Part shown: one piece after another, positions 16,549 to 28,259 of the stretch
How the letters are laid out: every line of letters starts with the position of its first letter
Position numbering within the stretch: position 1 is the first letter of the stretch
Origin: Methylocystis sp.
GTDB lineage: Bacteria; Pseudomonadota; Alphaproteobacteria; Rhizobiales; Beijerinckiaceae
NCBI GenBank assembly: GCA_022843405.1
Contig: JALHNQ010000002.1
Location: 62,001 to 126,000 of the forward strand
Direction of reading: 5' to 3'
Length of the DNA stretch: 64,000 bases
The notes under the pieces: generated by a model
Database searches by the model: none
What the model was told of the DNA's origin: nothing
The model's input: the letters and a program-made list of their open reading frames with translations, nothing else
Position numbers and translations under genes: made by a program

Positions 16549-17016
16549 ATGGCCGATACCCTTTCCCCAACACAACGCAGCGAACGCATGGGGAGGGTCC
16601 ATGGAAAGGACACCAAGCCCGAACTGGCCGTTCGTCGACTTGTCCACAAACTCGGATATCGATTTCGGCTCCACCGAAAGGACCTTCCAGGAACCCCGGA
16701 CCTTGTTTTTCCACGCCTTAAAAGCGTGATCTTCGTGCATGGCTGCTTTTGGCATCGTCATCCCGACCCGAAATGCCCGCTGGCGCGACTACCAAAGTCG
16801 CGTCTTGGCTTTTGGGAGCCTAAACTCAGCGCCAATCGGCAGCGCGATTTGCGTAACCAGGCATTACTTTCCGACGCAGGGTGGCGGGTTTTAGTTGTCT
16901 GGGAGTGCGAGCTGTGCAATAAAGAACAATTAGAGAACAAAGCACGTAAGTTTTTGGAGGTAACATGCGGGCCATCGAGCTTTTCGCGGGGGCAGGAGGG
17001 CTCGGTATCGGGATAA
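16549..17016 (+). CDS. vsr: Very short patch repair endonuclease (Vsr), second copy
   Basis: This Vsr protein (155 residues) has the complete family core: the start MADTLSPTQRSERMGRVHG, then LHRKDLPGTPDLVF, the zinc site FVHGCFWHRHPDPKC and WECELCN near the end. It nicks beside T:G mismatches at sites methylated by the partner enzyme. Its last 52 bases overlap the start of the following methyltransferase gene in another frame, so the two are tightly linked. It differs clearly from the first Vsr copy at 10518, so the two modules were probably acquired separately. Codon use here is less GC-biased than in typA, which fits horizontal transfer. Confidence 0.93.
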   Translation: MADTLSPTQRSERMGRVHGKDTKPELAVRRLVHKLGYRFRLHRKDLPGTPDLVFPRLKSVIFVHGCFWHRHPDPKCPLARLPKSRLGFWEPKLSANRQRDLRNQALLSDAGWRVLVVWECELCNKEQLENKARKFLEVTCGPSSFSRGQEGSVSG

Positions 17017-18152
17017 GCATGGCGGGCTTCCGCCCTGCAGAGGTGGTGGAGTGGGACCGCTGGTGCTGTGACACGATCCGTGAGAACCGGGCGCGCCCAG
17101 ATTCCACAGTGGCAAAATGGCCAGTGCCCTTGGAGGGCGATGTTCGCAATTTCAGCTTTCGACACTACGAGGGCAACGTTGAACTCGTTACAGGCGGTCC
17201 GCCGTGTCAACCCTTTTCCTTGGGCGGAAAACATCGAGCGTTCAACGACTCTCGAGATATGTGGTCAGAGGCCGTGCGCGTCGTCCGCGAAACAAAGCCG
17301 AAGGCGTTCATATTCGAAAACGTGAAGGGCCTCACGCGAGAAAGCTTCTCCAGTTATCTCGCCTACATCGTCCACCAACTCACCTACCCTGAAATTGCGC
17401 GGCGCGAATATGAGAGCTGGGAGGACCATCTTGGGCGCCTTGTAGGGCATCACACGGCAATCCGACTCGGTGGCAACACTCTCACCTATCGCGTCGTCTA
17501 TAGGGTGTTAAACGCCGCGAATTACGGAATTCCTCAGCGCCGCGAGCGCGTAGTATTCGTTGGGTTTCGCAGTGACCTTGATCTGGAATGGTCGTTCCCC
17601 GAAGAGACACATTCGCTCGATGCCCTTTTGTGGGACCAGACTCGCGGCGATTACTGGGAGCGTCGTAATGTTTCCAAGCGTCTAAGGATACTTGCGCAAC
17701 GGTTTGAGGAACGCGCTCGCCGTCTGATCGAACGCCCAGTCTCTTTGCCCTGGCAAACCGTGCGTGATGCTATCGGAGAATTGCCCGATCCTGAACACGA
17801 GCCGCGCGAAGCAGTGGCTTTTGCCAACCATCGTTTTCAACCCGGCGCGCGCGCCTATCCCGGACATACAGGATCACCTCTTGATGAACCCGCTAAAACT
17901 CTCAAGGCGGGTGTCCACGGGGTCCCCGGTGGGGAAAACATGTTGGCGCGTCCGGACGGAAGTGTCCGATATTTTTCCGTGCGGGAAAGCGCGCGGTTGC
18001 AAACGTTCCCCGATAATTTCGTATTCCATGGCTCATGGACCGAGACGATGAGACAGCTGGGTAACGCCGTGCCTATTGAGCTTGCCGCAATCATTGCCCG
18101 AAGCGTTCGAGCCCATCTGCAGCCCTCTGGAAAGCCCATGGGGCGGGGCTAA
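16965..18152 (+). CDS. DNA (cytosine-5) methyltransferase of an Eco29kI-like restriction system
   Basis: This C5 methyltransferase (395 residues) should protect host DNA from the endonuclease encoded at 20452. Motif I is ELFAGAGGLGIGI, the catalytic cysteine is C81 in GGPPCQPFS, motif VI is FENVKGL, motif VIII is IPQRRERVVFVGF, and motif X is RQLGNAVPIELA. A strong GGAGG site at 16955-16959 supports the ATG at 16965. The stop codon TAA is followed at once by ATGAGTA, which matches the first codons of the endonuclease gene. Before an insertion element entered here, the two genes would have met as TAATG. The target site is inferred, from the endonuclease family only, to be like that of Eco29kI (CCGCGG). 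Confidence 0.94.
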   Translation: MRAIELFAGAGGLGIGISMAGFRPAEVVEWDRWCCDTIRENRARPDSTVAKWPVPLEGDVRNFSFRHYEGNVELVTGGPPCQPFSLGGKHRAFNDSRDMWSEAVRVVRETKPKAFIFENVKGLTRESFSSYLAYIVHQLTYPEIARREYESWEDHLGRLVGHHTAIRLGGNTLTYRVVYRVLNAANYGIPQRRERVVFVGFRSDLDLEWSFPEETHSLDALLWDQTRGDYWERRNVSKRLRILAQRFEERARRLIERPVSLPWQTVRDAIGELPDPEHEPREAVAFANHRFQPGARAYPGHTGSPLDEPAKTLKAGVHGVPGGENMLARPDGSVRYFSVRESARLQTFPDNFVFHGSWTETMRQLGNAVPIELAAIIARSVRAHLQPSGKPMGRG

Positions 18153-18158
18153 TGAGTA
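18151..18158. repeat. Target site duplication, left copy (AATGAGTA)
   Basis: The eight bases AATGAGTA occur directly left of the insertion element. They recur directly right of it at 20451-20458. Eight-base duplications are usual for the IS1595 family. The duplicated bases contain the ATG of the endonuclease gene. Confidence 0.85.
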
Positions 18159-18222
18159 GGGTCTTATGCACTTTACATAACGCAAATGTTCAGGTAGAGT
18201 TCTCGTCATTGGAGCTAAGGCA

Positions 18223-19182
18223 ATGACGAACCTAACCGACCCGCTTTTCATGAACGAAGACGCCGCCCGCGCGCATTTCGAGAAAATCCGCTGGCCTGAC
18301 GGCAAGCCGGTCTGCCCGCATTGCGGGGTTGTCGATCAGGCGACGCGTCTTGAAGGTAAGTCGCATCGTCCTGGTCTTTTCGTTTGCCGCGCTTGCCGCG
18401 AGCATTTCACGGTGACGGTCGGAACCGTCATGGAGTCCTCGCACGTTCCACTTCACAAATGGGCGCTTGGTTTCCATCTGATGGCGTCCAGCAAAAAAGG
18501 CATTAGCGCTCACCAGTTGATGCGCAATCTCGGGCTCGGCTCCTACCGCACGGCATGGTTCATGGCGCATCGCATTCGCGAGGCGATGGCGGATCGTGAC
18601 CCGGAACCGCTCGGCGGCAAGGGCAAGACAGTTGAAGTCGATGAAACCTATATCGGCAAGCCGGACTCGACCTTCGTCAATGGCAAGGGATGGGTCGGAA
18701 AGCGCGGCACGGCGACGAAGCGCAAGGTTCTGACCATGGTCGAGCGCGGCGGCCGATCCGTTTCAATCAAAGTCGACGATCTCACGATCCCGACCATCAA
18801 GAAGATTTTGGGCGCGCATGTCGTGCTGGACTCGACGCTCAATACGGACGAAGCGCAGTTCTACAAGAAGCCCGGCAAGGCGTTCGCGGCGCATGAAGCC
18901 GTCAATCACGGCAGTGGCGAATATGCGCGCGGCGAGACAACGACAAACACCGTCGAGGGATTTTTCGGTATTTTCAAGCGTGGAATGCGTGGCGTCTATC
19001 ACCACTGCGGCGAACAGCACTTGCAGGCGTATCTGAATGAGTTCGATTTCAGATATTCGAACCGTGTCGGTCTCGGCGTTGATGACACGGAGCGCTCACG
19101 ACGCGCGATCAAGGGCGCGGAAGGCAAACGGTTGACGTATCAACAACCTCGTAAGGCGCGAGCGGGCCAAGCGTCAGCTTAA
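18223..19182 (+). CDS. IS1595-family (ISXO2-like) transposase
   Basis: This transposase (319 residues) moves the surrounding element by DDE-type DNA cleavage and strand transfer. An N-terminal zinc ribbon has the pairs CPHC and CRAC. The catalytic domain shows VEVDETYIGKP with the first acidic residues, LDSTLNTDEAQFY in the middle, and NTVEGFFGIFKRG with the late glutamate. The HHCGEQHLQAYLNEFDFRYSNR end is characteristic of the ISXO2-like group. The gene looks intact. A GGAG site lies about 9 nt before the ATG. A short frame that starts at the left target duplication ends with a TGA overlapping this ATG, so translation from the host operon could reach it. Confidence 0.94.
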   Translation: MTNLTDPLFMNEDAARAHFEKIRWPDGKPVCPHCGVVDQATRLEGKSHRPGLFVCRACREHFTVTVGTVMESSHVPLHKWALGFHLMASSKKGISAHQLMRNLGLGSYRTAWFMAHRIREAMADRDPEPLGGKGKTVEVDETYIGKPDSTFVNGKGWVGKRGTATKRKVLTMVERGGRSVSIKVDDLTIPTIKKILGAHVVLDSTLNTDEAQFYKKPGKAFAAHEAVNHGSGEYARGETTTNTVEGFFGIFKRGMRGVYHHCGEQHLQAYLNEFDFRYSNRVGLGVDDTERSRRAIKGAEGKRLTYQQPRKARAGQASA

Positions 19183-19361
19183 GAAGTTGCGCCGCCTTTT
19201 GGCTTGGATCGACGCGCTTTAGGCTGGCGAGTCGCCGTGGTGGACGCCACTGGCTCGTCGACCTTCTTCGGCTTCGGCGGGGTATTAAGCGCGCGTCGGA
19301 TCGCGTCGTCTCTACGTTGAGCAATTTCTATATCAGACATTGTTTCAGGGTTGCCCGCCAT
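19179..19361 (-). CDS. Small passenger protein of the insertion element (hypothetical)
   Basis: A 60-residue frame on the minus strand overlaps the transposase stop codon. The product includes DIEIAQRRDDAIRRAL followed by NTPPKPKK and a basic tail. RRDDALLRAL-NTPPKP-like small proteins are familiar in alphaproteobacteria, which is why I keep it. A second possible start (MSDIEI, 19340) would give 53 residues. There is no good ribosome site for either. Function unknown. Confidence 0.45.
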   Translation of the reverse strand: MAGNPETMSDIEIAQRRDDAIRRALNTPPKPKKVDEPVASTTATRQPKARRSKPKGGATS

Positions 19362-19410
19362 GACTCAAGCCCTTGATTTGGCGCCAAGTTTTACGACAAC
19401 AATACAATTC

Positions 19411-19473
19411 TTGCATTAGAATCAGCGTCTTGCTATATAAGAAGCACGCTGGCGGCGGCAGCCGCCGGCGTGC
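19411..19473 (+). promoter_or_regulatory. Possible promoter and strong hairpin inside the insertion element
   Basis: TTGCAT at 19411-19416 and TATATA at 19434-19439 are separated by 17 bases, a good fit to a vegetative promoter on the plus strand. About 5 bases downstream lies a hairpin with arms GCACGCTGGCGGC and GCCGCCGGCGTGC (19444-19473). No convincing plus-strand gene follows, so a small RNA or a transcription block is possible. The rest of the stretch 19362-19641 shows no gene. Confidence 0.4.
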
Positions 19474-19641
19474 AACAGCTATTGAGGTTGCATATCTGCA
19501 CCCTCCTATATTACCGCCGGGGCTTACCGTGACCACCCCGACGGGACTCTGTGTGGCCCGCGAGACCACGACGCTGACGCCCTCGTGGCGTCTGCCGACT
19601 GCACCTGATGTCACGGCCGGGTGCAGCCGGGATTCTTCTCT

Positions 19642-20172
19642 TCACGGCACTGTGAAGATTCCCTTGCGGCCTTCGGTAGTTGACACTTGTCCAGCTTTGG
19701 CAAGACGATAAAGCTTGTTGCCAATCAATGTGCGCTGGCCGATCTCTCCAGTCTTGCGGTAAAGGTCAATGAGGATGTCATCCAGCGATGCCGCCCCGCC
19801 ACGATCAGCGATGATCTGCACCAGAACGTCGGCCTGACCCTTCTTTGACCTACTGCTCAACTGCTCCAGCAATTCTGACGGCAAATCAGAAAAATCGTCG
19901 GCGTGTTTTTGAGATGGAATGCCGGCGGCAACTGCTTTAGGACGCGCAATTTGCTCGCCGGCAGGAGTGGCGATTATCTCGACGCCCGATTGGCCAGATG
20001 TTTTCTTCTGGGTTTCCAGGTATTCAAATAAGTCTTTATGATCCGCCAACAGACGCTGATACATTTTAACCTGATCCGGACGGTAGCGCGGATTCGTGGG
20101 CGGGAAGCGATCAAGCTGGCTCTGATAATAGTCGACCTGGCCCTTGACAAGATCAATGAATTTCTCTAGCAT
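19642..20172 (-). CDS. Passenger protein of the insertion element, winged-helix-like C-terminus
   Basis: I do not recognise this protein (176 residues). The N-terminal half is helical with many charged residues (FIDLVKGQVDYYQSQLDRF). The C-terminal third, ASLDDILIDLYRKTGEIGQR followed by LYRLAKAGQVSTTEGRKG, has the pattern of a winged-helix domain with a small beta wing, so DNA binding is possible. It lies wholly inside the element and points toward the transposase gene. Its role could be regulation of transposition or a cargo function; neither can be decided here. The region right of it (20173-20450) carries no gene. Confidence 0.65.
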   Translation of the reverse strand: MLEKFIDLVKGQVDYYQSQLDRFPPTNPRYRPDQVKMYQRLLADHKDLFEYLETQKKTSGQSGVEIIATPAGEQIARPKAVAAGIPSQKHADDFSDLPSELLEQLSSRSKKGQADVLVQIIADRGGAASLDDILIDLYRKTGEIGQRTLIGNKLYRLAKAGQVSTTEGRKGIFTVP

Positions 20173-20450
20173 TCCCTAGCCTTTCATAGGCAAGCGGGCG
20201 GCGTTCGCGCTCATTGGCCCGTTTCGAGATTGGAGCAAATGGAGCTGAGTTCCTGTCCGGGGCCAGCTCCATTTGTGTTTCTGACGTTCTTATACTTCCG
20301 AGTCGAACTTGGCGCAAGTCCCATCGCATCACTTTTCACATCGTTGCCAATTTTTTTAGTCTCAACCATCAATCAAACATCGCTCGCCCATCCAATATTC
20401 GTGCATGACGCGCGCCGGCGACCACATATTATGCCAAGTGCATAATTGGG

Positions 20451-20458
20451 AATGAGTA
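20451..20458. repeat. Target site duplication, right copy (AATGAGTA)
   Basis: This is the right copy of the eight-base duplication that flanks the insertion element. Its ATG (20452-20454) is the start codon of the restriction endonuclease gene. Confidence 0.85.
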
Positions 20459-21291
20459 AGGCTCCGACATCAGGTCACAAAGCGCTCATCGAGAAGTTGC
20501 GGAAAGATTTCGCCGATCTCGCCAGTCAAGCGCGTAGCACGGAGCTTACCCAGCACGGGCAACGGAAGTTTAACGAGGAGATTAAGAAGGCTGCGGAAGA
20601 ACTGAACGTGTTGCTCTGCGAGCTTGATCCCATCAAGCGACCAATTGCGATCTTCGATCCAGGCAACCCACGCACTATCGGTTTTTTCATCGCGCTCGCC
20701 TTGACCGCACAACCTCGTCAGCCTTTAGCGGACTTGAAGGAATTTTACGGGTCGGGGGTTTATGCGATCTACTACCGCGGCAATTTCAACCTTTACGCTC
20801 CGTTGCGCGGCGCGGAGACCCCCATTTACGTCGGACAAGCGAGGACTGGAAATGAGCACGCTCAGACTCCGGTGGAACAAGGGATCAGGCTCCTCGCGCG
20901 GCTCAACGAGCACCGAAAGAATATACTGCGCGCCTCGGCTACTTTGGACATCAACGACTTTGACTACCGAGCGCTAGTCGTTCAGACCGGATGGGAAACA
21001 GGCGCAGAAGACTATCTCATACGTCTTTTCAAGCCGATCTGGAACAGCGAAACCAAACTCGTCTATGGCCTTGGGAAGCACGGCGACAGCGCAGAAACTC
21101 GACGCAATAAGCGCTCTCCTTGGGATACGTTGCACTCCGGCCGCGAATGGGCAGGCGCGGATGCGATCGTTGACGCGAAATCATTGCAAACGATTGCTGC
21201 CGAACTAACCGAACACTTCGCGAAAGTGCCGCCATACCGAACTGTTAACGATGTGCTTGCTGGATTTATACAAGCCCTCAGACAAATATAG
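20452..21291 (+). CDS. Eco29kI-family restriction endonuclease (GIY-YIG nuclease)
   Basis: The product (279 residues) belongs to the Eco29kI/NgoMIII type of GIY-YIG restriction enzymes. The core motifs are GVYAIYY at residues 102-108 and PIYVGQA at 124-130. They are followed by the HRKNI helix, the glutamate-bearing TGAEDYLIRLFKPIWN and the family signature RSPWDTLHSGREWA. Known members cut CCGCGG; this specificity is only inferred here. The ATG at 20452 lies in the right target duplication, so the native first codons ATGAGTAAGGC are intact. The gene originally followed the methyltransferase stop as TAATG. It has now lost the upstream ribosome site and coupling, since the preceding bases come from the insertion element. 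It could be silent, weakly expressed, or driven from the element. Confidence 0.9.
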   Translation: MSKAPTSGHKALIEKLRKDFADLASQARSTELTQHGQRKFNEEIKKAAEELNVLLCELDPIKRPIAIFDPGNPRTIGFFIALALTAQPRQPLADLKEFYGSGVYAIYYRGNFNLYAPLRGAETPIYVGQARTGNEHAQTPVEQGIRLLARLNEHRKNILRASATLDINDFDYRALVVQTGWETGAEDYLIRLFKPIWNSETKLVYGLGKHGDSAETRRNKRSPWDTLHSGREWAGADAIVDAKSLQTIAAELTEHFAKVPPYRTVNDVLAGFIQALRQI

Positions 21292-27600: not shown

Positions 27601-27819
27601 TCCCGCATCCGCACCAGGGTTTTCCGTTGTCTATAGGGACTGCCTGCCTGCTGCTCTAGCTCTATCGTTTCGGTTGCGCAAGAAGCGGGCGTCCTGAGGG
27701 GTCACGGCGCGACAACTTTGCCAGCCTCGCCGAAAAAATAGTCTCGCGCCCCAAAAACCGCTTGTAACGGCGGGAAAAGCGCGTATCTACATCCTTGCCC
27801 AAATCGCACGTGCCTGTGG

Positions 27820-28259
27820 TCGTGTGTCGGTAGGCGGGGATCCGGACAAGAGGCCGGTCAACCGCCAGCGTAAAACCGGCAGCCGGAGGCGAACCGGCGA
27901 ACTCCGTCTCTGCGGAGGATCGCGACTTAAAGCAACGACGGACCGGGCTTTTTCGTCTCTGTCGACCCTCCAAAGGTCGGCGTACCGAAGAGGCTTGTCT
28001 TTCTTGCCGGGCGTGCGGATCGGGATTCTCCCCTTCCAATCGATGGCTGTACCCGCGGAAGCGTGCGCGCTCAGGCGTGCATCATTTCGCATCGGTCCAG
28101 TCAACGGCGCATCAACCAGCCGTTCGAGCGCTTGCGCTCGCGCGGCCTTGGACAGCTAACCCAACGTTCGTCGCGTCTCCATCGCGCGCGGGCGAACGGA
28201 GCGGCGTGTCCGTTGACGCTCAACGATCTGGGCGCGGTTCGCCGCGCAAGGGGGCCACA
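27820..28259 (+). ncRNA. Probable speF-type structured leader before ornithine decarboxylase
   Basis: The 659 bases between opgG and the decarboxylase gene carry no convincing gene. The part from about 27820 contains several stems. In GTGTCGGTAGGCGGGGAT the GGCGG pairs with a later CCGCC, with an inner CCGG/GCCGG stem. Further on are CTCCGTCTCTGCGGAG and CGACCCTCCAAAGGTCG. A conserved RNA element, speF, is known upstream of ornithine decarboxylase genes in alphaproteobacteria, and position and length fit. I matched it from memory of location and style, not from a covariance search. It would control polyamine synthesis. The first part of the gap (27601-27820) shows nothing clear. Confidence 0.55.

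Follow-up and report, generated by a model that had tools for sequence, protein, structure and literature searches.

We found that a cargo-carrying IS1595-family transposon separates the DNA methyltransferase gene (M) from the restriction endonuclease gene (R) of a vsr-M-R locus in the window, the whole 64-kb stretch of DNA analysed here. From the sequence we consider it probable that this transposon belongs to an SOS-linked clade, that it entered the locus away from its usual site, where the stop codon of M overlapped the start codon of R, and that R is now weakly made or unmade. The element would have jumped into the operon exactly at this overlap, and as the R start codon is part of the 8-bp duplication, both proteins stayed whole. 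The ribosome site of R and its coupling to M would thereby have been lost, and R would now lie 2.3 kb more distant from whichever promoter serves M; M would stay expressed, with little or no R being made. The lineage behind this event appears to insert mostly at the LexA (SOS) box of recA and to carry a LexA box in the leader of its own transposase gene (tnp).

The element and the interrupted locus

Reading the sequence directly, we placed the M stop codon TAA at 18150-18152 and the R start codon ATG at 20452 (Table 1). The 2292-bp element between them and its exact 8-bp duplication AATGAGTA, present on both sides, are as the preliminary description had given them, and its IS1595 identity was confirmed by the NF033547, PF12762 and PF12760 matches; the transposase domain scored above the cut-off, in the company of terminal inverted repeats (TIRs) and an 8-bp duplication. 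ISApl4, also of this family, has 8-bp, preferably A/T-rich repeats and 39 copies in one genome, according to an excerpt of PMC12561309. Two sister elements from genomes of the same genus aligned with ours from base 1, one to base 852 (90%) and the other to base 1065 (80%), and their last 22 bases aligned again to an identical end (95%); the middles differ. The borders are thus supported by two relatives that share both ends and, together with the exact duplication and the inverted repeats, indicate that the insertion is not a chance arrangement. As the assembly is a draft of 98 contigs, an artefact joining two loci was considered; we regard it as very improbable, because the assembly holds a single full copy of the element (besides five short or diverged matches), the duplication is exact, and the joined flanks restore a stop/start overlap resembling that of relatives.

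Table 1. Features of the interrupted locus, by window position.
Feature	Position	Strand	Basis and remarks
vsr, very-short-patch repair endonuclease gene	16549..17016	+	overlaps M; TIGR00632 E 2.9e-43, PF03852
SOS (LexA) box-like GAACAATTAGAGAAC	16924..16938	+	inside vsr 3' end; begins 41 nt before M start codon
M, C5-cytosine DNA methyltransferase	16965..18152	+	intact frame; PF00145 2.5e-58, TIGR00675
Left target duplication AATGAGTA	18151..18158	.	overlaps M stop; direct sequence
Cargo-carrying IS1595-family element, 2292 bp	18159..20450	+	sequence, TIRs, domain matches, sister elements
Left terminal inverted repeat	18164..18180	+	imperfect, 17 nt, 88%
tnp promoter-like site TTTACA-17-TAGAGT	18172..18200	+	consensus match only
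SOS (LexA) box GTTCAGGTAGAGTTC, predicted	18188..18202	+	exact GTTC-N7-GTTC; overlaps predicted -10 of tnp
IS1595 transposase gene (tnp), 319 aa	18223..19182	+	intact frame; NF033547 1.6e-59, PF12762, PF12760
Small basic ORF RRDDAIRRALNTPPKPK	19179..19361	-	motif in 7/11 clade loci, 0/3 outgroup loci scanned
Strongly foldable stretch	19425..19690	.	beside cargo ORF 3' end; z -4.1 (+), -4.4 (-)
Cargo ORF, 176 aa	19642..20172	-	298 genomes searched, homologues in 2 others
Weak promoter-like site ATGACG-16-TATTAT	20405..20432	+	points at R from element right end; 9/12, consensus match only
Right terminal inverted repeat	20429..20445	-	imperfect, 17 nt, 88%
Right target duplication AATGAGTA	20451..20458	.	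contains R start codon; direct sequence
R, Eco29kI-family GIY-YIG restriction endonuclease, 279 aa	20452..21291	+	intact frame; PF09517 2.1e-32 (RE_Eco29kI)

The preliminary description overlooked the cargo and the SOS-box lineage of the element; the lineage is the more unusual part. The 176-aa cargo protein matched no family above the cut-off in Pfam or NCBIfam and none in PADLOC. For the foldable stretch, Rfam gave only a chance-level HOTAIR_2 match (E 2.8) and nothing at the gathering threshold. A plasmid search with the element returned 37 records with partial 60-80% matches, none covering 80% of the element, and the same search with the cargo protein returned no match.

When the element and one repeat were removed, the joined flanks read TAATGAGTAAGG. 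This restores an overlapping stop and start and supports the ancestral state that had been proposed. The methylase/endonuclease pair was split as precisely as had been claimed; the duplication holds part of the M stop together with the R start. For the comparison with relatives lacking the element, we used 25 other R loci, in none of which an IS1595 transposase match was found. Such an overlap, described as typical of coupled pairs, is frequent in these relatives: seven of the 17 with M followed by R on the same strand have it, including the closest one, whereas six have gaps of 2-13 nt and four have longer or unclear ones. Taking the likeliest start, five of the seven overlaps are TGATG, one is ATGA (the closest relative) and one GTGA; the genes had been expected to meet as TAATG, and on this point the comparison is mixed: the overlap itself recurs in relatives, but TAATG with a TAA stop does not occur in any of them. 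The other relatives are differently arranged, seven carrying the two genes on opposite strands and one having R first. In the closest relative (G225; M 72%, R 62%), R begins MSK-, as it does in the window.

The term Eco29kI-type, used in the preliminary description, fits the family of R (PF09517) and not the order of the genes. In Eco29kI, the two genes likewise overlap by their stop and start codons, with R before M (an excerpt of PMC3039593), whereas the window has the order vsr-M-R, with vsr in front and a transposon interrupting M and R. The active-site residues given for Eco29kI in an excerpt of PMC1952068 are Y49, Y76, R104, H108, E142 and N154, and all six positions are kept in the R of the window, as read by eye from an alignment to 3mx4; position 142 is Q in the solved chain and E both in that excerpt and in the window. 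Avoidance of CCGCGG as a trace of past restriction was also considered and rejected: 45 sites were observed in the 64-kb window against 57.8 expected, and this ratio of 0.78 is, over 64 kb only, not distinct from the 0.75-0.93 of seven other GC-only palindromic hexamers.

Expression of the endonuclease

The claim that R lost its ribosome site through the insertion agrees with the computed Shine-Dalgarno pairing, which changed from -6.7 kcal/mol for the joined flanks to 0.0 kcal/mol at the present locus (M, -9.9 kcal/mol; median of 400 random positions, -2.45). Because this pairing was removed, R expression is likely to be low after the insertion, which probably switches R off while leaving both genes whole. 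The eventual outcome would be, at a guess, an orphan methylase. Some R mRNA is possible, since the element has a weak promoter-like site near its right end (20405-20432) and a scan of 18000-20700 found no terminator.

These same features would also suit a near-neutral insertion, in which a promoter in or near the right end, or long read-through, still yields useful amounts of R, translation starts leaderless or nearly so, and restriction persists. With R intact at all six active-site positions, and with the same right end facing recA, a gene presumably still expressed, in most recA-box copies (see below), we give this alternative some weight while holding it to be rather unlikely: R is without a Shine-Dalgarno sequence at usable spacing, the site at 20405-20432 matches a promoter only weakly, and the two sister elements have CGTTAT and TGTTAT in place of its -10 TATTAT.

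A lineage associated with LexA boxes

We built a tree from 28 chosen rows (12 clade and 16 outgroup copies), in which the transposase of the window fell within a clade of 12 cargo-type copies with a support of 100/100, nearest to G203 (96% aa). Nine of the 12 lie where recA has its upstream LexA/SOS box: an exact GAAC-N7-GAAC is the site in seven, only the left half of the box is visible in one, and in one, G066, the element is reversed within a degenerate box. Both element sides and recA were seen in G203, G151, G198, G116 and G021; the left and right sides of G217 and of G167 are on two contigs each and were taken as a single insertion, and G236 shows its left side only. RecA was identified by Pfam in four copies and by tblastn in G151, G116, G021 and G066. 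The three clade members away from recA are the window copy, G037 and the decayed G089. The window copy sits at the M/R junction and not at the recA SOS box, and its joined flanks (about 550 bp per side) lack an SOS box even when one mismatch is allowed; G037 is 26 nt from another SOS box, and the flanks of G089 contain none.

The recA gene of this genome is truncated by a contig end near residue 165 and its box lies outside the assembly, so that off-site here is not a comparison with an empty or filled home site. A perfect box, GAACAAAAAAAGAAC, was tried as the recA box of this genome and rejected, as the translated ORF downstream of it resembles the beginning of ssb. Among 249 genomes of the order, only nine of them from the family, 12 had right-end/recA-target matches (at most two mismatches) and none of these was this junction; the clade is therefore known from family samples only, and its absence elsewhere is weakly tested. 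G332, an incomplete copy at the end of a contig (64% over 119 aa), was left out of the tree; its leader lacks a box, and the 3.8-kb contig that carries it lacks recA.

The motif GTTC-N7-GTTC, the Caulobacter SOS box according to an excerpt of PMC6237742, was present in the tnp leader of all 12 clade copies (nine exact, three with one mismatch) and was absent from the element itself in all 16 outgroup copies; the boxes of outgroup copies G223 (exact) and G043 (one mismatch), about 93 nt before the start codon, were counted as flank rather than leader, that of G223 by the position of its duplication. Across ten left ends, the box columns were 96% conserved, compared with 73% for the spacer and 69% for the rest. 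As the lineage mostly sits at the recA LexA box and has a predicted LexA box in its own leader, its transposition is probably raised by DNA damage. The window copy would then have inserted off-site, as a member of a lineage whose predicted control and landing site are both linked to SOS boxes.

More distant IS1595 copies were also compared with exact boxes. Six of 31 end-verified copies below 65% identity lay within 60 bp of one, against a background of 1.1% (binomial 9e-7), in rows that are not fully independent and include G089, grouped with the clade by the tree, and with background windows that came from the same fetched stretches, boxes at insertion sites included. Four of the six have exactly 4 bp between box and duplication; for the other 25 copies, the nearest exact box, if any, is more than 60 bp away. 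The excess was smaller, 3/15 against a background of 2.2%, among sites with a GC content of at most 55%. G037, G217, G167 and G236 were outside this test, as was the composite G116, whose ends were mis-paired automatically and whose outer ends were read separately.

An ordinary insertion, with a site choice unrelated to SOS and a recA-box cluster due to descent from one recA-linked insertion, would account for the box-free flanks of the window copy and for the 25 distant copies away from a box. The clade copies are kin, and the nine recA sites are therefore not fully independent. However, judged by eye, the left flanks of the recA insertions seem unrelated from one genome to the next, the cargo differs and one copy is reversed; among 30 recA upstreams of the same genus, 21 have an uninterrupted exact box, two hold the element and seven have no exact box. 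Together with the excess of distant copies near boxes and the exact 4-bp offset of four of them, this makes the ordinary explanation unlikely. For a fuller version of the SOS-linked reading, namely a LexA-repressed transposase combined with LexA-box landing sites and a split operon left by a damage-time jump elsewhere, we find belief and doubt evenly balanced. DNA damage would free the transposase and bare its target together; the landing site would be above all the LexA box before recA, where insertion would loosen recA control; and other IS1595 lineages would share the tendency at a fixed 4-bp offset from the box.

The damage may even have been caused by the very R later cut off. Taken further, R-made breaks would have induced SOS and freed the LexA-controlled transposase, and the jump cutting off R would have been selected. 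The predicted box in the tnp leader, an insertion point that can silence R with M unharmed, and a LexA-like box also before M fit such adaptive silencing. The box before M is kept exactly in G225, within a 23-bp stretch that is the longest exact run of the vsr-M alignment between the two (64% identity), and SOS-like boxes before M were found in two of 21 M loci examined, the window included. We nonetheless think selection of this kind improbable, since there is a single event and an insertion within R would equally silence it.

Comparison with known elements

The IS1595 insertion sequence family, as reportedly described by Siguier in 2009, includes members with passenger genes. Our element resembles it in the zinc ribbon, the ISXO2-like DDE transposase, the TIRs and the 8-bp duplications, and its clade differs in the LexA-type box of the tnp leader and the clustering at the recA SOS box. 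Tn7 is a site-targeting transposon at glmS and, like this clade, a cargo element favouring one conserved chromosomal site beside a housekeeping gene; unlike Tn7, the clade has a single IS1595-type transposase with no dedicated targeting gene noticed, its target is a repressor-binding site, and off-site copies exist. The Tn5 transposase is a LexA-controlled mobility gene, and we know of no insertion at LexA boxes by Tn5 or integron integrases, which share with the clade a LexA box in the promoter of a mobility gene. Integron integrases are LexA-controlled, and only the beta/gamma-type motif was found in their promoters, according to an excerpt of PMC3108266. Among the literature matches listed (titles and abstract starts), none dealt with an IS inserted at an M/R junction or at SOS boxes.

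Few targeted transposons exist, and they are useful. If the SOS-linked reading is true, a repressor-binding landing site before recA would tie the movement of the element to host DNA repair and to its cargo, and we would expect SOS-induced transposition and LexA-independent recA expression in carriers, as well as competition or cooperation of LexA with the transposase. In the study of restriction-modification, the locus itself would offer a clean natural test, in which the translation start of R alone has been uncoupled from M and both proteins are whole.

An insertion between methylase and endonuclease

The preliminary description held that an IS1595-like element splits an Eco29kI-type restriction system at the junction of the methylase (M) and the endonuclease (R), and its coordinates and the restored junction TAATGAGTAAGG proved correct when read in the sequence. 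AATGAGTA stands exactly at either side of the element, with imperfect terminal inverted repeats just within. Two elements from other genomes of the same genus match the window element from base 1 (90% to base 852 and 80% to base 1065) as well as in its final 22 bases (95%), and their middles differ; the borders thus rest on more than the window copy. The 3.34-Mb, 98-contig assembly contains one full copy, which makes repeat collapse improbable as the cause. The insertion is real and precise.

Features of the window, in nucleotides
Feature	Coordinates	Strand	Remark
vsr (very-short-patch repair endonuclease gene)	16549-17016	+	
SOS-like box GAACAATTAGAGAAC	16924-16938		within vsr; starts 41 nt before M
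M (C5-cytosine methyltransferase gene)	16965-18152	+	
Element, 2292 bp	18159-20450		between M and R
Transposase (tnp) of element		+	
LexA-type box in tnp leader	18188-18202		overlaps predicted -10
Cargo ORFs of element		-	
Foldable stretch in cargo	19425-19690		z -4.1 (+), -4.4 (-)
Leader of 176-aa cargo ORF	20172-20290		
Weak promoter-like site	20405-20432		predicted
R (Eco29kI-family endonuclease gene)	20452-21291	+	
Alphaproteobacterial sRNA ar45 and speF leader (Rfam)	27797-28110		ar45 27797-27952; speF leader directly after, 27960-28110

We compared 25 other loci with an R relative, 17 from named genomes and eight from 397 same-family genomes. R-relative matches occurred in 9 of these 397, the window's own genome included, with no further genus member in that sample. 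M is followed by R on one strand at 17 loci, the two genes lie on opposite strands at seven, and R comes first at one. Among the 17, stop and likeliest start overlap in seven (five TGATG, one ATGA, one GTGA), the gap is 2-13 nt in six, and it is longer or unclear in four; the ATGA belongs to the closest relative, G225 (M 72%, R 62% identical to the window's). An ancestral M/R overlap agrees with these seven relatives. TAATG with TAA as the stop was found at none of the 25 loci, nor was an IS1595 transposase match. R begins with MSK at the present ATG in both the window and G225, indicating that the insertion fell on the start codon and spared the protein. According to PMC3039593, R precedes M in Eco29kI and the two genes overlap by stop and start codon, so that "Eco29kI-type" is true of the R protein but not of the operon. 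At two loci (L031 and L032, in G237 and G187), M shares 60-66% identity with that of the window but R only 35-37%, which suggests exchange or fast change of R beside a conserved M.

R can be aligned to the solved Eco29kI chain, and the six active-site positions named in PMC1952068 are kept in the alignment, as read by eye. Shine-Dalgarno strength was computed as the energy of pairing with the 16S tail, with 3-13 nt allowed as spacing. The joined flanks give -6.7 kcal/mol, the ATG that R now has 0.0 and the M start -9.9; at 400 positions drawn at random from the window the median is -2.45, the 10th percentile -5.8 and the 75th percentile -1.5. R's loss of its ribosome site and coupling is evident in the sequence; R is probably poorly translated, and its synthesis would be weak or absent. 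Given the weak promoter-like site, and as a terminator scan of 18000-20700 detected none, some transcription of R is possible.

A cargo-carrying lineage at the recA SOS box

The cargo of the window element comprises a small basic ORF, a 176-aa ORF, for which no family scored above the cut-off, and the adjoining foldable stretch. The same slot holds an HNH-like protein in the sister element of G203 (Pfam HNH_5 only at 0.025), an HNH_5 protein in G198 (2.7e-7), a trypsin-like protease in G151 (Trypsin_2 2.2e-5, slightly below cut-off; PADLOC PDC-S45 3.3e-7) and ORFs without assigned function in others. Ends and transposase stay constant while the cargo varies, which, on sequence comparison, marks the element as a cargo transposon with an IS1595 transposase at its core. 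The foldable stretch, whose far end carries a GC-rich hairpin, lies at the 3' terminus of the 176-aa ORF; one other genome of the family, G009, has a 122-bp part of the stretch at 79% identity. The leader of this ORF, with locus L061, appears by eye to be conserved with the G223 homologue as a hairpin and a short overlapping frame reading SKRANERERRP, and ORF and frame possibly form a two-gene cargo module.

Copies for the tree were collected by end motif in 397 family genomes, by element DNA in 39 genus genomes and by transposase in 239 family genomes, and 28 rows were chosen. The window copy falls in a clade of 12 (100/100 support), nearest to that of G203 (96%). Nine of the 12 occupy one site, the SOS box directly before recA. 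GAAC-N7-GAAC, the reverse complement of GTTC-N7-GTTC, is exact at seven joined sites (G203, G151, G198, G116, G021, G217 and G167, the two sides lying on different contigs in the last two); in G236 only the left half of the box is visible, and the G066 copy, which has the opposite orientation, occupies a degenerate box, its duplication reading ACAAAATC on the recA strand. At this site the remaining copies have the duplications ACAAAAAA, ACAATAAA/ACAAAAAA and ACAAAAAT. RecA behind the insertion was identified by Pfam in four copies and by tblastn in four more, and is not visible for G236. The insertion at the recA box of G116 (L102) is a composite: it consists of two clade copies that are nearly identical, are inverted relative to each other and carry the cargo in duplicate. 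Within the genus, 36 of 39 genomes gave a recA-type match; among 30 upstream regions read, 21 had an unbroken exact box, two had one into which the element had inserted, and seven had no exact box. PMC6237742 gives GTTC-N7-GTTC as the Caulobacter SOS box.

This motif also stands in the tnp leader of all 12 clade members (nine exact, three with one mismatch); it begins some 34-37 nt upstream of the start codon, or 75 nt in G066. Inside the element it was found in none of 16 outgroup rows; two of these have a box about 93 nt upstream (G223 exact, G043 with one mismatch), which we take as flank. In an alignment of ten left ends, conservation is 96% in the eight columns of the box, 73% in the spacer and 69% elsewhere.

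SOS boxes beyond the clade and before M

Ends were located by inverted repeat and duplication for 40 rows, and 37 were kept after removal of one window duplicate and two mis-paired rows of the G116 composite. Among the six rows above 65% identity, four (all except the window and G066) had an exact box no more than 60 bp away from the insertion. Below 65%, where G089 is among the 31 rows, six had one and 25 did not; in the GC-matched background the figure was 641 of 60000 windows (binomial 9e-7, the rows being not fully independent). When only sites with at most 55% GC are counted, 3 of 15 rows had a box against 2.2% of the background. Control patterns (spacers 4, 5, 6, 8 and 9; two other 4-mers) matched none of the 40 rows, and spacer 10 matched four, which we attribute to the recA region's second GAAC. 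The distance from box to duplication was exactly 4 bp in four of the six box-adjacent rows below 65%. No report of IS1595 elements at SOS boxes was found in the literature searched, judged by title or abstract start.

L244 (G092) and L247 (G136) each have an IS1595 copy 4 bp away from an SOS box, in the vicinity of an ORF that by eye resembles an O-antigen ligase; this gene may be a second place where such elements land repeatedly. Other IS1595 copies lie elsewhere, some with a target in common; two in G198 (L203 and L218) adjoin TTTCACGTGAAAC, which resembles a chromosomal parS (the ParB site) and is possibly another regulatory-site target.

Three clade copies lie away from recA: that of G037, with a broken transposase and GAACATATAGTGAAC beginning 26 nt past its right end, the decayed copy of G089, and the window copy. 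The window genome's assembly is without the 5' part of recA and the box before it. The SOS-like box before M is one of two exact boxes in the 64-kb window, with about 1.5 expected by chance (hand estimate). It recurs in G225, in an alignment that is 64% identical and whose longest exact stretch (23 bp) includes it, and a box lies within 200 nt of M at 2 of the 21 M loci examined. As a lead, M and R may be LexA-controlled in this lineage. The window copy belongs, as an off-site member, to a lineage that is seemingly SOS-controlled and SOS-box-homing, and it is an attractive, if hypothetical, idea that damage made by R may have triggered its jump.
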